Source: Chloroflexota bacterium
GTDB taxonomy: Bacteria > Chloroflexota > UBA11872
Assembly: GCA_009839425.1 (NCBI GenBank)
Contig: VXPS01000399.1
Span: 1-36,325, forward strand
Length of the DNA: 36,325 nt
Reading direction: 5' to 3'
Positions 3,731 to 9,131 of this stretch are shown piece after piece. A model generated the notes under the pieces. The model ran no database searches and was not told where the DNA came from. It saw nothing but the letters and a program-made list of their open reading frames with translations. Numbering within the stretch: the first letter of the stretch is position 1; every line of letters starts with the position of its first letter. A program made the position numbers and the translations under genes.

Positions 3731-4330
3731 TCAGGGCTCGCCGCGGACTCCTACGCGTTCCAGGAAAGCGCGCGCGGCGCGTCCGCCCTGGCCACGATCG
3801 CCGATGACGTCTTTTGCCACTCCTGGCAGTTCCGCCATTGTCGTAGTGCCGGGTCCGACGACGAATAGCGGGTCGAAGCCAAAGCCGCGCTCACCCTGCA
3901 GCGAATGGCCGATGAAGCCCTCCACCGTCGCTTCCGTCTCGTAAGCGATGGCTCCGTTCGGATTGGCTATTGCAACAGCGCAGCGGTAGCGGGCGGATCG
4001 ATCACCGTCTGTGACACCGCGAACCAGTTCGATCACCCGGCAATTCCGATCAATGTCCGTGGCATTGGGTCCGGCAAATCGGCTAGACCGGACGCCCGGT
4101 ATGCCGCCCAGCGCGTCGATCTCCAGGCCGGAGTCGTCGGCCAGAGCCCATTGTCGGCACGACCTTGCGTATGCGATGGCTTTAAGGCGGGCGTTCTCGG
4201 CAAGGGTGGCACCAGTCTCATCCACATCGATGCCGCAGCCCAAGTCCGTCGGCGAAAGCAGCCGCACACGGGAACCGGCGAATATGCGCCGAAACTCAGC
4301 GATCTTGCCCGCGTTAGCGGTGGCCAGCAC
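3731..4330 (-). CDS. RdgB/HAM1 family non-canonical purine NTP pyrophosphatase, copy A
   Basis: LATANAGKIAEFRRIF, LAENARLKAIAYA, LADDSGLEIDALGGIPGVRSSRFAG, GFGFDPLFVVGPG. C-terminal recognition motif is IGDRG instead of ISHRG. GTG start at 4330; frame stays open upstream so N-terminus could be longer. Confidence 0.88.
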   Translation of the reverse strand: MLATANAGKIAEFRRIFAGSRVRLLSPTDLGCGIDVDETGATLAENARLKAIAYARSCRQWALADDSGLEIDALGGIPGVRSSRFAGPNATDIDRNCRVIELVRGVTDGDRSARYRCAVAIANPNGAIAYETEATVEGFIGHSLQGERGFGFDPLFVVGPGTTTMAELPGVAKDVIGDRGQGGRAARAFLERVGVRGEP

Positions 4331-4544: not shown

Positions 4545-5222
4545 TCAGGCTCCGGCGCGGAGCAGTACGCGTTCCAGGAATGCCCGGGCGGCTCGGCCGC
4601 CTTGACCGCGGTGGCTAATGACGTCCTTAGCCACTCCGGGCAACTCGGCCATCGTCGTGTTTCCCGGTCCCACGATGAACAGTGGGTCGTATCCAAAGCC
4701 ACCGTCGCCGGACGGCGCGTGGCCAATGACGCCCTCAACAGTGGCTTCCATCTCGAAAGCGATGACGCCCTGGGGATCAGCGACGGCAACCGCGCAGCGG
4801 TACCGGGCGGTTCGATCATCTTGAGCAACGTCGGTCAGTATCTCCAGCACCCGGGTGTTCCGGTCGTCGTCCGTAGCGGCCGGACCGGCGAAGCGGCTGG
4901 AGCGGATGCCCGGTGCGCCGTTGAGTGCGTCGATTTCAAGCCCGGAATCGTCGCCGAGCGACCACCAACGACAGGCCCGCGCGTAGGCGACGGCCTTGAG
5001 GCGCGCGTTTGCGGCGAAGGTCTCGCCCGACTCGTCAACGTCGCACTGGCAGCCCAACTCAACGGGCGAGAGCAGGCGCACACGCGAACCTTCGAAAACT
5101 CGCCGGAACTCGGCCAGCTTGTGGGAGCTGCCGCTGGCGAGCACGACGCAGGCACCGCGCGAGGCTATTCGGCCGTCAATGCACCGGTGAATTGCTAGAG
5201 TTATTCCGTGGTTGTCGCGCAA
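4545..5222 (-). CDS. RdgB/HAM1 family non-canonical purine NTP pyrophosphatase, copy B (tandem paralog)
   Basis: LASGSSHKLAEFRRVF, FAANARLKAVAYA, LGDDSGLEIDALNGAPGIRSSRFAG, GFGYDPLFIVGPG, DVISHRGQGGRAARAFLERV. N-terminal TxNxxK motif is altered (SGSSHK). Confidence 0.88.
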   Translation of the reverse strand: MRDNHGITLAIHRCIDGRIASRGACVVLASGSSHKLAEFRRVFEGSRVRLLSPVELGCQCDVDESGETFAANARLKAVAYARACRWWSLGDDSGLEIDALNGAPGIRSSRFAGPAATDDDRNTRVLEILTDVAQDDRTARYRCAVAVADPQGVIAFEMEATVEGVIGHAPSGDGGFGYDPLFIVGPGNTTMAELPGVAKDVISHRGQGGRAARAFLERVLLRAGA

Positions 5223-5308: not shown

Positions 5309-6187
5309 TTGATGTCCAGCTTCGACGTGGAGCAAGCGTTCAAGGACCTTGGCAACGCCATCATTCGAGGCGATGCCCCGACCGTGGATTCCACGGTTCG
5401 CACGGCGCTCGACGAAGGCGTGGAAGCCTCGTCGATCATCAACGACGGGATGATTCCGGGCATGGATGTGGTGGGCGAGCTTTTCCGCACCAACCAGTAC
5501 TACGTGCCCGAGGTGCTGATCTCGGCGCGGGCAATGAAGGCGGGTATGGCGATTCTTCGGCCGATCCTGGCCGCGTCGGGAATCGAACCAGTGGGCCAGG
5601 TGGTGATCGGTACCGTGCGGGGCGACCTGCACGATATCGGCAAGAACCTGGTGGCCATGATGCTCGAAGGCGCCGGATTCGGCGTTCACGACACCGGCAT
5701 CGACACCCACCCGGACGAGTACATCCAGAACGCGGTCGCACAGAACGCGAACATCATCGGCATGTCGGCCCTGTTGACGACCACCATGACGAACATGCGC
5801 AACACGATTGAGGCCGTTGAAGCGGCGGGGCTGGCGGACCAAGTGCACTGCATCATCGGCGGGGCGCCGGTCACACAGCGCTATGCCGATGAGATCGGCG
5901 CGGATGGCTATGCGGCAGACGCGGCTTCGGCGGTGATCCTGGCGAAGCGCTTGCTGGGTGTATTGGCTGACGAGGACGAAGGCGAAGACATGGGGCGGTC
6001 GTTCTACCTGCGAGCGCGCGACGCGCTGCAAGTGGCGGTGCGTGAAGAACCCGGAACCGAGACGCACGCCGACGGTCTCATGGAAGCCGAGGGCCTAACG
6101 GAGCAGGCGCGCGCGGCGGGCTACAACCCAACACACATCGAGCGGCTAATGGCCGAGATCGAGCGCGAGAAGGTACGGACGGTCTAG
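5309..6187 (+). CDS. Cobalamin (corrinoid)-binding protein, MtbC/MtaC-like, with acidic C-terminal extension
   Basis: B12-binding motif GDLHDIGKNLVAMMLEGAGFGVHDTGID (DxHxxG), preceded by a helical cap domain, GMSALLTTTMTNMRNTI; about 70 aa extra C-terminal residues. Confidence 0.88.
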   Translation: MMSSFDVEQAFKDLGNAIIRGDAPTVDSTVRTALDEGVEASSIINDGMIPGMDVVGELFRTNQYYVPEVLISARAMKAGMAILRPILAASGIEPVGQVVIGTVRGDLHDIGKNLVAMMLEGAGFGVHDTGIDTHPDEYIQNAVAQNANIIGMSALLTTTMTNMRNTIEAVEAAGLADQVHCIIGGAPVTQRYADEIGADGYAADAASAVILAKRLLGVLADEDEGEDMGRSFYLRARDALQVAVREEPGTETHADGLMEAEGLTEQARAAGYNPTHIERLMAEIEREKVRTV

Positions 6188-7125
6188 GGGGCGGTATCGC
6201 GGCAGGTCTCACCGAGTCCCAGACTCCGGGCGTTGCCGCCCAACAATGCGCCCAGGTCTTGGCCCGCCAAGCCAGCCTGGCTAGCCAGCCGAATGGCTCG
6301 CGTCTGACGAATTAGCGGGTAGTCGCTGCCGAAAAGTACGCGTCCCGGAGCAAGCTGGCTCATCACCTGGAACACCTCCGGCCGATAGAGCAAGTGGCTG
6401 GCCGAGGAGTCGTAGTAGACGTTTTGGGCCTGCTGGTGGATTTCGGGCATCAACTCGTAAAAGGCGAGACCGCCGCCCCAGTGCGCCAGGATGATGGGCA
6501 CCTCGCCTTCCGCGGCTTCGATCACGGACCAGATCGCGTCTGGAGTGGTGCTGTCCTTGCCGGGATAGGTATGGCCGACAGGCTCGCTGGTGTGGACAGT
6601 CAGGATGAGCCTCAAGCTTCGAACTGTGTCCACGAAGTATCGGACGGCGGACCGGTCGTTGAGATTCCAGCCCTGACCCTGGGGAAAGATCTCGCCGACA
6701 CCAAGCGCGCCGAGGGCGCGGCAGCGCTCCATTTCCGCGGCGGCAAAGTCCAGGTCGCCGGGCGGGACGACACAGAATGGAAGAATCTGTCCTCCGCCGC
6801 CGTTGCTCGCAGCCGCCGCATCCAGCACGTAGTCATTGTTGGCCCGGCACAGTCCCGGATCGCGCCAAGCGAACCCAAAGGCCACGCTGGCGGCAAGGTC
6901 CGCCCGTCGCATGCTGCGGCGCAGATCGTCCGTCGAGGCGAGCACGCGACGCTCGTTTCGATAAAGCCGCCCGAACCAGAGGTCGGCCTGGCTGTAGCGC
7001 CGGCGGCCGAGGACCACGTCCGGCGGCACGATGTGCGTATGCACGTCGATCCGAACGGAGGCGGGCAGGCTTGCTTCGTTAGCCCGGGGAATGAGTGAGA
7101 CTCCTGGCGTAAGGCTTCGCGGCAT
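6184..7125 (-). CDS. Amidohydrolase 2-family metal-dependent hydrolase (TIM barrel)
   Basis: RIDVHTHIVPPDV (HxH), VGEIFPQGQGWNLND, ILTVHTSEPVGHTYPGK, ILAHWGGGLAFYELMP, VLFGSDYPLI. Confidence 0.85.
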   Translation of the reverse strand: MPRSLTPGVSLIPRANEASLPASVRIDVHTHIVPPDVVLGRRRYSQADLWFGRLYRNERRVLASTDDLRRSMRRADLAASVAFGFAWRDPGLCRANNDYVLDAAAASNGGGGQILPFCVVPPGDLDFAAAEMERCRALGALGVGEIFPQGQGWNLNDRSAVRYFVDTVRSLRLILTVHTSEPVGHTYPGKDSTTPDAIWSVIEAAEGEVPIILAHWGGGLAFYELMPEIHQQAQNVYYDSSASHLLYRPEVFQVMSQLAPGRVLFGSDYPLIRQTRAIRLASQAGLAGQDLGALLGGNARSLGLGETCRDTAP

Positions 7126-7151: not shown

Positions 7152-8423
7152 TCAGGCCGGGCTCGGCGCCTCAGGCGTGAGAAACGTCCAATGCTGGTTG
7201 GCGTCGGCCACCCGGAAGGCCTCGGACCATCCGCCATGGGTATGCGGATCGATCCAGGCGAAGCCTGCCGCGCGAAGAGCCGCCTGCACAGGACAGCGGA
7301 GCCCCAGGCGACGGGCTGCGCAAATGATCGTCACCGGGCCGTCGCGATGGCGAGGCTCGGCGGTTAGGGCCGGCAGGGCGGATTCCAAGCTGGAGTCGCC
7401 GAGAACCACGATCGGTCGGTAGCCCTGCGCGGCCAGGCTGCCAGCAAAGGACACGGCGTGTGATCCACCCAAGCCAAGGTCGAAATACCGCTCGGGAGCC
7501 TGCTCGGCCACTAGGGCGGCATCCAGCGCGCCGTGGGTGTCGGTCGCGATCAACAAGCGTCGCTCGTCACCCGCCATTGCGTCCGCGAGGGCCTGCTCGA
7601 GGTCACCCAGGTCGGCGACGGCGTCGTGTGACGTGGATCGGACCGGTGCGCGCCCTTCAAGCGTCACATGCAGGACCACCGGACGCCCGACCCGGAGCGC
7701 CAGGCGCAGCAGTTCGCTCAGAGCCTCCAGATTGTGCGCGTCAACCGGTCCCAGGTACATGAAACCCAGCAACTCTTCCCACATCTCGGTCGGGATTAGC
7801 AGCTCACGAACCGAATTCTTGAGCCGCCGCGCCACTTCCACCGCCTGTTCGCCCGCGGGCATGCGTCCAAGCGTCGTTTCAATCAGGTTCTTGGCGTCGG
7901 AGTAGCGGGCGTGACCGCGCACGCGAGTCAGATAGCGAGCCATGGCTCCGGCGTTGCGTCCACGCGGCGTCTGGGCGTCAACCAGAATCAGGACGAACGG
8001 AACTTGCAGGTGACCAACGTGGTTCACGGCTTCGAAGGCCAGACCAGTTCCCAGTCCGGCCTCGTCCAGCACGGCTACGACCGGCTGGCGTTCGCGACGC
8101 AACGTGCGGGCTACAGCCACGCCGGCCGCCTCAGAAGCCGCGCGGCCGGGTGACTCCGTGGCCTTTACTTCGGCCAAGCCCTTCAGCAGCAGATCGTGGG
8201 CGAGCGCGTGGTCGGCCCGATCCCAGAACACGTCGTTGGCGGGATCGTCCACGGTTTCCGCGACCATCACAGCCAGTTCGGCGGTGCCGCTGAGTGCCAG
8301 GACGTTTGACGGCAAGTGTTGCGAGAGCCGTTCGCGCAGCGCCTCAATTGTGGCGGCACGCTCGGCGGGAGCTGCCGGATCGGCTGGCTGGACCGCAAGG
8401 CGCTCTGGAATCGCGGCTGTCAT
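7152..8423 (-). CDS. Degenerate, shortened 1-deoxy-D-xylulose-5-phosphate synthase-like protein (predicted pseudoenzyme)
   Basis: DXS-like order of blocks: SGTAELAV...VFWDRADHALAH...VVAVLDEAGLGTGLAFEAVNHVGHL..LILVDAQTPRGRNAGAMARYLTRVR..ARRLKNSVRELLIPTEMWEELLGFMYLGPVDAHNLEAL...RYFDLGLGGSHAVSFAGSLAAQGYRPIVVL; 423 aa versus about 620-640 for DXS; catalytic and cofactor motifs replaced. Confidence 0.75.
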   Translation of the reverse strand: MTAAIPERLAVQPADPAAPAERAATIEALRERLSQHLPSNVLALSGTAELAVMVAETVDDPANDVFWDRADHALAHDLLLKGLAEVKATESPGRAASEAAGVAVARTLRRERQPVVAVLDEAGLGTGLAFEAVNHVGHLQVPFVLILVDAQTPRGRNAGAMARYLTRVRGHARYSDAKNLIETTLGRMPAGEQAVEVARRLKNSVRELLIPTEMWEELLGFMYLGPVDAHNLEALSELLRLALRVGRPVVLHVTLEGRAPVRSTSHDAVADLGDLEQALADAMAGDERRLLIATDTHGALDAALVAEQAPERYFDLGLGGSHAVSFAGSLAAQGYRPIVVLGDSSLESALPALTAEPRHRDGPVTIICAARRLGLRCPVQAALRAAGFAWIDPHTHGGWSEAFRVADANQHWTFLTPEAPSPA

Positions 8424-8513
8424 TTGGTATTCCCAAGGTCGGCCGACGCTCGCGGGTGCGCGAGCAATCCGAGGCCCATCAGTAGATGGTTAACCTCACT
8501 ATACTGGCCGCCT

Positions 8514-9131
8514 ATGCGGGCATTCGTGGCTGTCACGATCCCCAAGCCGTTTCGGGACGCGCTGGCTGCCGAAGCGGCGTCATTGGCTCGCGTATCGCGG
8601 CACATTCGAACAGTCACGCCCGAGAACCTGCACCTTACGCTGGCTTTTCTGGGAAACATTCCGGCACAGAGCACCGATAGCGTTCGGTCCGGGATGCAGG
8701 CGGCCGTGCGGGGCCGACACCCGTTCAGCATTGGGTTCAGCGGTGGAGGCACCTTCCCGGAGAATCGCGAGCCGCGGGTTGCGTGGGCCGGGATCAGCGG
8801 CGAATCCGAGGCCCTGCGCGACTTGCAGGCGGCGGTGCTGGAGGCGGTGCGCGGCCTAGGACTGCGGGTGGACCGGCGGCCGTTCAGTCCGCACGTCACC
8901 CTCGCGCGCATCGGGCGAATGGCCGCACCAACGGCGCGCCGCTCGATCAGCCGCGGGTTCGAAGCAATGGAACTCGACCGGCTAGGACTCTTCACCGTGT
9001 CGCAGATCAGCCTGATGGAGAGCGATTTGACTCCGACCGGGGCCATCCACCACGAGGCATTCTCCGTGGAATTCACTCCGGATGAGGTCAGCGTGGAGGC
9101 CCCGCCGAAACGGCGGTTCGGGTTTTTCTAG
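8514..9131 (+). CDS. thpR: RNA 2',3'-cyclic phosphodiesterase (2H phosphoesterase, LigT/ThpR family)
   Basis: MRAFVAVTIPKPFRDAL, two HxTx motifs HLTLAFLG and HVTLARIG. Start placed at ATG 8514 inside ORF 8316..9131. Confidence 0.88.
   Translation: MRAFVAVTIPKPFRDALAAEAASLARVSRHIRTVTPENLHLTLAFLGNIPAQSTDSVRSGMQAAVRGRHPFSIGFSGGGTFPENREPRVAWAGISGESEALRDLQAAVLEAVRGLGLRVDRRPFSPHVTLARIGRMAAPTARRSISRGFEAMELDRLGLFTVSQISLMESDLTPTGAIHHEAFSVEFTPDEVSVEAPPKRRFGFF

Follow-up and report, generated by a model that had tools for sequence, protein, structure and literature searches.

A conserved DXS-like putative pseudoenzyme of Chloroflexota whose most constrained part is the DXS linker

Overall architecture and homology of pseudo-DXS

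The window analysed here, a 36,325-nucleotide stretch of Chloroflexota DNA, encodes a 423-residue protein (hereafter pseudo-DXS) that is collinear with domains I and II of 1-deoxy-D-xylulose-5-phosphate synthase (DXS), an enzyme of the isoprenoid pathway, and in which selection protects the DXS linker more strongly than any other part. The explanation that we favour, at a probability of roughly 0.55, is that pseudo-DXS is a DXS pseudoenzyme that selection maintains for binding, without catalysis, chiefly through this linker. Judged from sequence, the protein is almost certainly a conserved pseudoenzyme, and its function is probably centred on the linker; that it acts on DXS or the DXS pathway is a tentative proposal with the odds somewhat against it. 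The gene and its parts are as follows.

7152..8423 (-): pseudo-DXS gene, 423 aa, stop codon at 7152-7154; matched by PF13292 and, below its cut-off, by TIGR00204, with orthologues in 18/19 genomes of the family
7950..8303 (-): degenerate ThDP-pyrophosphate domain (domain I), residues 41-158, without GDG...N and the GHSS loop; from alignment with canonical DXS
7740..7949 (-): DXS linker, retained and under the strongest constraint, residues 159-228, GAMARYLTRVRG...WEELLGFMYLGPVD; from dN/dS, identity and conserved columns
7164..7613 (-): residues 271-420, a fast-evolving, degenerate pyrimidine-binding domain (domain II) with Gly in place of the catalytic Glu; the stop codon comes after it; from alignment and dN/dS

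The 423-codon reading frame at 7152-8423 (-) is uninterrupted. In a profile search, the DXS N-terminal family PF13292 matched residues 94-254 (4.8e-36), and TIGR00204 gave a score of 141.3 bits against a curated cut-off of 465.95, which places the protein below the threshold for functional DXS. Its matches among PDB sequences are essentially all DXS, the canonical DXS of other families are up to 40% identical to it, and Transket_pyr was detected in 8 of the 18 pseudo-DXS members (best 1.2e-7). An AlphaFold2 model was built with 12 close orthologues (mean pLDDT 59), and the best 50 structural matches of this predicted fold were all DXS; most of the linker has a pLDDT below 50, so its shape cannot be read reliably from the model. 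The profile match, the predicted fold and the motif losses shared by the orthologues agree with the first-pass annotation, which had described a DXS-fold protein with its functional motifs replaced. Two of the blocks that it had listed as DXS-like, MARYLTRVRGHARYSDAK and ARRLKNSVRELLIPTEMWEELLGFMYLGPVDAHNLEAL, are indeed so, and can be assigned more exactly to the DXS linker, the most strongly conserved part of pseudo-DXS.

Distribution and selection

Pseudo-DXS is found in 18 of the 19 genomes of the family (12/13 in genus g1 and 6/6 in genus g2), the lone exception being a 76% complete genome, and the identity between the two genera is ~45%. The contigs that match it belong to Chloroflexota MAGs, including one single-contig chromosome of 3.0 Mb, and the bin names of the MAGs suggest that the family is sponge-associated. 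The gene is absent from the five examined genomes of the sister family f2, none was seen in 17 other genomes from the rest of the class, and nothing similar appeared among the matches listed for a 400-genome sample of the phylum. Beyond Chloroflexota, a single-sequence scan of genome contigs gave one weak mycobacterial match only.

The dN/dS of pseudo-DXS is ~0.17 (0.175 for close pairs and 0.168 for wider pairs, the wider set having a dN of 0.132 and a dS of 0.787), and that of canonical dxs in the same genomes is 0.06. Pseudo-DXS is thus a retained gene that is less constrained than the canonical enzyme. Orthologues with the same defects and a dN/dS indicative of purifying selection, both of which had been suggested as checks at first pass, were found (18 genomes, two genera).

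Loss of catalytic residues

Catalytic columns were tabulated for 14 pseudo-DXS orthologues aligned with canonical DXS, with the residue roles taken from PMC12633525 and PMC9068908. The Mg-ThDP motif, noted earlier as missing from the protein of the window, is lost in 14/14 copies, with GDG replaced by DEA, DDA or DGQ and LNDN by LVDA or LVDT, so neither Asn of LNDN survives in any of them. Also deleted in the orthologues examined are the GHSS loop, the fork/spoon His and the THQG loop. The active-site network of DXS comprises H49, R99, H299, D427 and H431 in E. coli numbering (PMC12633525); the columns of R99, the fork His, D427 and H431 are deleted in all 14 copies, and the H49 column is substituted in 13 of them. 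The catalytic Glu (FDVxIAEQH), which had been reported as lost, is Gly in the pseudo-DXS of the window and in all genus g1 copies, but remains Glu in genus g2 (VELGE[SA]H). Since genus g2 keeps this residue, the defect that all copies share is the missing Mg-ThDP motif, and only genus g1 has also lost the Glu.

Domain III, the transketolase C-terminal domain, is wholly absent, and the protein ends after domain II. The earlier description of missing C-terminal parts therefore holds for domain III but not for the pyrimidine domain, in which the alpha/beta core runs to the final strand (residues 413-415) and only internal loops are lost. No gene for the C-terminal subunit of a split transketolase-type enzyme is adjacent, the neighbours being an amidohydrolase gene and thpR. 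With this set of losses, pseudo-DXS would no longer be able to hold Mg-ThDP or make DXP.

Canonical DXS and dxr in the same genomes

The first-pass annotation had asked whether a canonical dxs lies elsewhere in the genome. The genome of the window has one, with a 633-residue product, on another contig, and dxr is present too. A canonical DXS of ~630-670 residues that scores above the TIGR00204 cut-off occurs in all 19 family genomes, as one copy per genome except in G006, which has two, and dxr was found in every family genome except G003 (76% complete and also without pseudo-DXS). In several genomes dxr lies ~17-20 kb from pseudo-DXS on the same contig; canonical dxs and pseudo-DXS are unlinked. 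Of the earlier proposal of a retained structural or regulatory paralogue, the retention and, as far as sequence tells, the non-catalytic nature are upheld by the shared defects, the purifying selection and the presence of canonical dxs and dxr in the genome; the physical link to true DXS that it offered as one example is plausible.

Several side observations concern the distribution of DXS. The second canonical dxs of G006 (G006:C33, L129) is near-identical to the genus g2 copy and lies on a 5.2 kb contig of a g1 bin, and is probably MAG contamination. In two genomes of family f2 (G021 and G022), dxr is present but no DXS reached the TIGR00204 cut-off, which reflects either assembly gaps or a different source of DXP. 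Among 17 genomes of families f3, f4 and f5 of the same class, none has a canonical DXS over the cut-off and only partial transketolase-like matches were obtained; these lineages may obtain isoprenoid precursors in a different way.

Constraint on the linker

The linker between NVGAL and GPVDGH, a feature of functional DXS, is present in pseudo-DXS. When the gene is divided into regions, dN/dS is 0.107 for domain I, 0.018 for the linker (residues 159-228) and 0.243 for domain II, and the corresponding identities between the two genera are 52%, 79% and 29%. Ordinary Chloroflexota DXS shows the opposite order, with the linker as its least conserved part (44% identity) and the core reaching 64-67%. 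The dS of the linker is 0.763, compared with 0.73-0.93 elsewhere in pseudo-DXS; because it is not depressed, the constraint acts on the protein. Conservation at the nucleotide level, through an overlapping antisense frame or an RNA element, was considered and is ruled out because linker dS does not stand out from dS elsewhere in the gene.

We also scored columns with a conservation of 70% or more across 17 linker-type Chloroflexota DXS, which gave 29 linker and 200 core columns, with 17 of the columns falling in the linker core (residues 165-215). Columns kept in all pseudo-DXS copies amount to 25/29 in the linker and 40/200 in the core (Fisher p=4e-12). The canonical DXS of the family shows the mirror image of this pattern, with 135/200 core columns, 10/29 linker columns and only 1/17 linker-core columns kept in all copies. 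In these enzymes the linker consists of 49-50 unrelated residues, compared with 62-81 residues in all other measurable Chloroflexota DXS.

In the tree, the family's canonical DXS is closest to that of sister family f2 (99/99 support). The f2 enzyme keeps a 62-residue linker, and pseudo-DXS is absent from f2, so the linker replacement and the gain of pseudo-DXS map to the same stem branch. Since the mirror-image pattern rests on this one branch, it represents a single coincidence in time and not a repeated association. Such a reciprocal pattern, seen here as one event only, would be expected if two functions had been divided between two genes. Pseudo-DXS forms a long branch in the tree, and its grouping with the family's own DXS has a p-AU of 0.295 (0.5 when f2 is added), so the tree neither supports nor rejects it as a sister paralogue of the family's own dxs. 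The linker of pseudo-DXS resembles that of other Chloroflexota DXS more than that of f2 DXS.

Genomic setting

Pseudo-DXS is flanked by three genes that are part of a conserved neighbourhood.

6184..7125 (-): PF04909 amidohydrolase, 26 bp downstream of pseudo-DXS and in the same direction; profile match 2.1e-25, adjacency in 18 genomes
8514..9131 (+): thpR (RNA 2',3'-cyclic phosphodiesterase), divergent neighbour and conserved upstream boundary; TIGR02258 above cut-off, synteny
5309..6187 (+): MtgC-like corrinoid protein, convergent with the amidohydrolase gene and conserved downstream boundary; profile matches, synteny

Pseudo-DXS and the amidohydrolase gene probably form a two-gene unit. In both genera the gene order is largely conserved: HD-domain gene, small unknown gene, hydantoinase B, thpR, pseudo-DXS, amidohydrolase, corrinoid protein, HAM1 and SDR. 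Most of the same order is found in f2, but there the neighbour of the amidohydrolase gene on the thpR side is a HemW/HemN-related radical SAM gene, encoded on the other strand (L168, positions 7700-8978; same slot in L169, L171 and L173), and a similar radical SAM gene also lies beside the amidohydrolase gene in another family of the class. TIGR00539, which covers such hemW-like genes, matched in 5/5 f2 genomes and in 0/19 genomes of the family. The presence of the hemW-like gene in the f2 slot and its absence from the family indicate that pseudo-DXS replaced, at this position, a gene that the family has lost. The amidohydrolase occurs without pseudo-DXS in f2 and across the class, where each genome gave a single match, in most cases with 35-48% identity; it predates pseudo-DXS.

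Other features of the neighbourhood were noted in passing. It is unusual in itself for a whole family to have lost a hemW-like gene. Two tandem genes that, by reading of the sequence and with no profile match, look HAM1/RdgB-like (XTP/dITP pyrophosphatase-type) lie at positions 3731-4330 and 4545-5222 (-) of the window; most relatives have one clear copy and L042 has two. NCBIfam corrinoid families match residues 9-217 of the MtgC-like corrinoid protein, which has a C-terminal extension of ~75 residues and is under very strong constraint (dN/dS ~0.04).

Possible function and alternative explanations

A binding role centred on the linker could have arisen by subfunctionalisation, in which an ancestral DXS with two separable functions gave rise to the present state, with the functions on two proteins. 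The degenerate ThDP domains of pseudo-DXS would then serve only to carry the linker. In the most likely mechanism, the linker helices would dock on a protein, and our guess for this partner is either DXS itself or the usual reader of the DXS linker; such docking would tune flux into the MEP/thiamin/PLP branch. Domain III makes extensive contacts in the DXS dimer (PMC9068908), and pseudo-DXS does not have this domain, which makes an ordinary heterodimer with DXS unlikely. A more general proposal is that in many bacteria DXS combines catalysis with a conserved non-catalytic function of its supposedly dispensable linker, and that reciprocal degeneration in this family left a working DXS that lacks the linker and a dead one that has kept only the linker; we regard it as rather doubtful.

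The main rival is that pseudo-DXS is a partner or scaffold of the amidohydrolase, encoded in a two-gene operon, with the linker docking on the amidohydrolase and stabilising or allosterically tuning it. The two genes are adjacent and co-directional in 18/18 genomes, and both evolve faster than most of their neighbours (dN/dS of 0.144-0.198 for the amidohydrolase and 0.168-0.175 for pseudo-DXS). However, the amidohydrolase occurs alone in f2 and across the class, and pseudo-DXS came later, into the hemW slot, so their adjacency may reflect insertion only; retention of a DXS-specific linker would also be left unexplained. The amidohydrolase scaffold suggested at first pass is weakened by these observations, despite the conserved arrangement, and we consider it improbable, at about one chance in five. 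Somewhat less probable still is a new ligand-binding or enzymatic role apart from DXS, in which the cofactor cleft would have been rebuilt, without ThDP, for another small molecule. The invariance of H72, D120, N134, H135, H138, D149 and H322 in 18/18 orthologues would fit such a role, but several of these are ordinary residues of the DXS fold that are found in canonical DXS too, and the ThDP domains are the less constrained parts of the protein, both in dN/dS (0.107 and 0.243) and in identity between genera (only 52% and 29%).

Catalysis could have persisted if pseudo-DXS were a divergent but active ThDP enzyme whose missing residues came from elsewhere or from a partner. This would be in line with the Glu kept at the catalytic position in genus g2, together with a shifted DG (IDGQG), and with the recognition of Transket_pyr in some members. 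It is very unlikely, since none of the copies examined has either Asn of LNDN, the GHSS loop, the fork His, the His/Asp loop of domain II or domain III, and no transketolase C-terminal partner gene lies next door. Missing catalytic motifs and a missing domain would also be expected of a decaying pseudogene or an assembly artefact, but the frame is open in 18 genomes of two genera, dN/dS is 0.17 (0.018 in the linker), synteny is fixed and one copy lies on a single-contig chromosome. An explanation of this kind has a negligible probability, and decay in particular is ruled out by dN/dS, orthologues and synteny, as the first-pass annotation had argued from the intact frame.

Comparison with known systems

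Among known proteins, pseudo-DXS is closest to the linker-type DXS of other Chloroflexota (TIGR00204, PF13292), with which it is collinear over domains I and II and of which it keeps on average 88% of the strongly conserved linker columns; it differs from them in having no Mg-ThDP motif, GHSS loop, fork/spoon His or domain III. The HemW/HemN-related radical SAM protein (TIGR00539) occupies the identical chromosomal slot in f2, but is unrelated to pseudo-DXS, is encoded on the opposite strand and is a positional predecessor only.

Structural papers describe the linker loop of DXS as non-conserved and often disordered, with its removal affecting catalysis little, and DXS without it stays active in vitro (PMC9068908, PMC10504544). 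Loop-truncated constructs that are active include the M. tuberculosis enzyme with residues 190-234 replaced by glycines and those of P. aeruginosa, K. pneumoniae and D. radiodurans (PMC9068908, PMC10504544). The linker has been deleted for DXS crystals because it looks non-conserved and is unneeded for catalysis, and we found no function reported for it in the literature consulted. The natural linker-replaced DXS of the family is presumably active like these constructs, but they are engineered, whereas in the family the linker was replaced naturally while a second protein keeps it. In the family, selection protects the linker in a dead paralogue, while the working DXS in these cells no longer has it; this suggests that the linker has a function not yet described, and the family would offer a natural separation of the catalytic and linker functions.

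We found no bacterial DXS pseudoenzyme in the literature searched. A non-catalytic DXS-like paralogue already has a known precedent in plant class 3 DXS (e.g. tomato SlDXS3), which, in the parts of PMC10675008 consulted, reportedly has no TPP site or DXS activity and exists beside true isoforms. No linker-focused conservation is reported in those parts of PMC10675008. As far as that description goes, the plant protein resembles pseudo-DXS in being a DXS-like paralogue beside a true DXS and differs in belonging to the plant lineage, pseudo-DXS being bacterial, truncated and far more degenerate.
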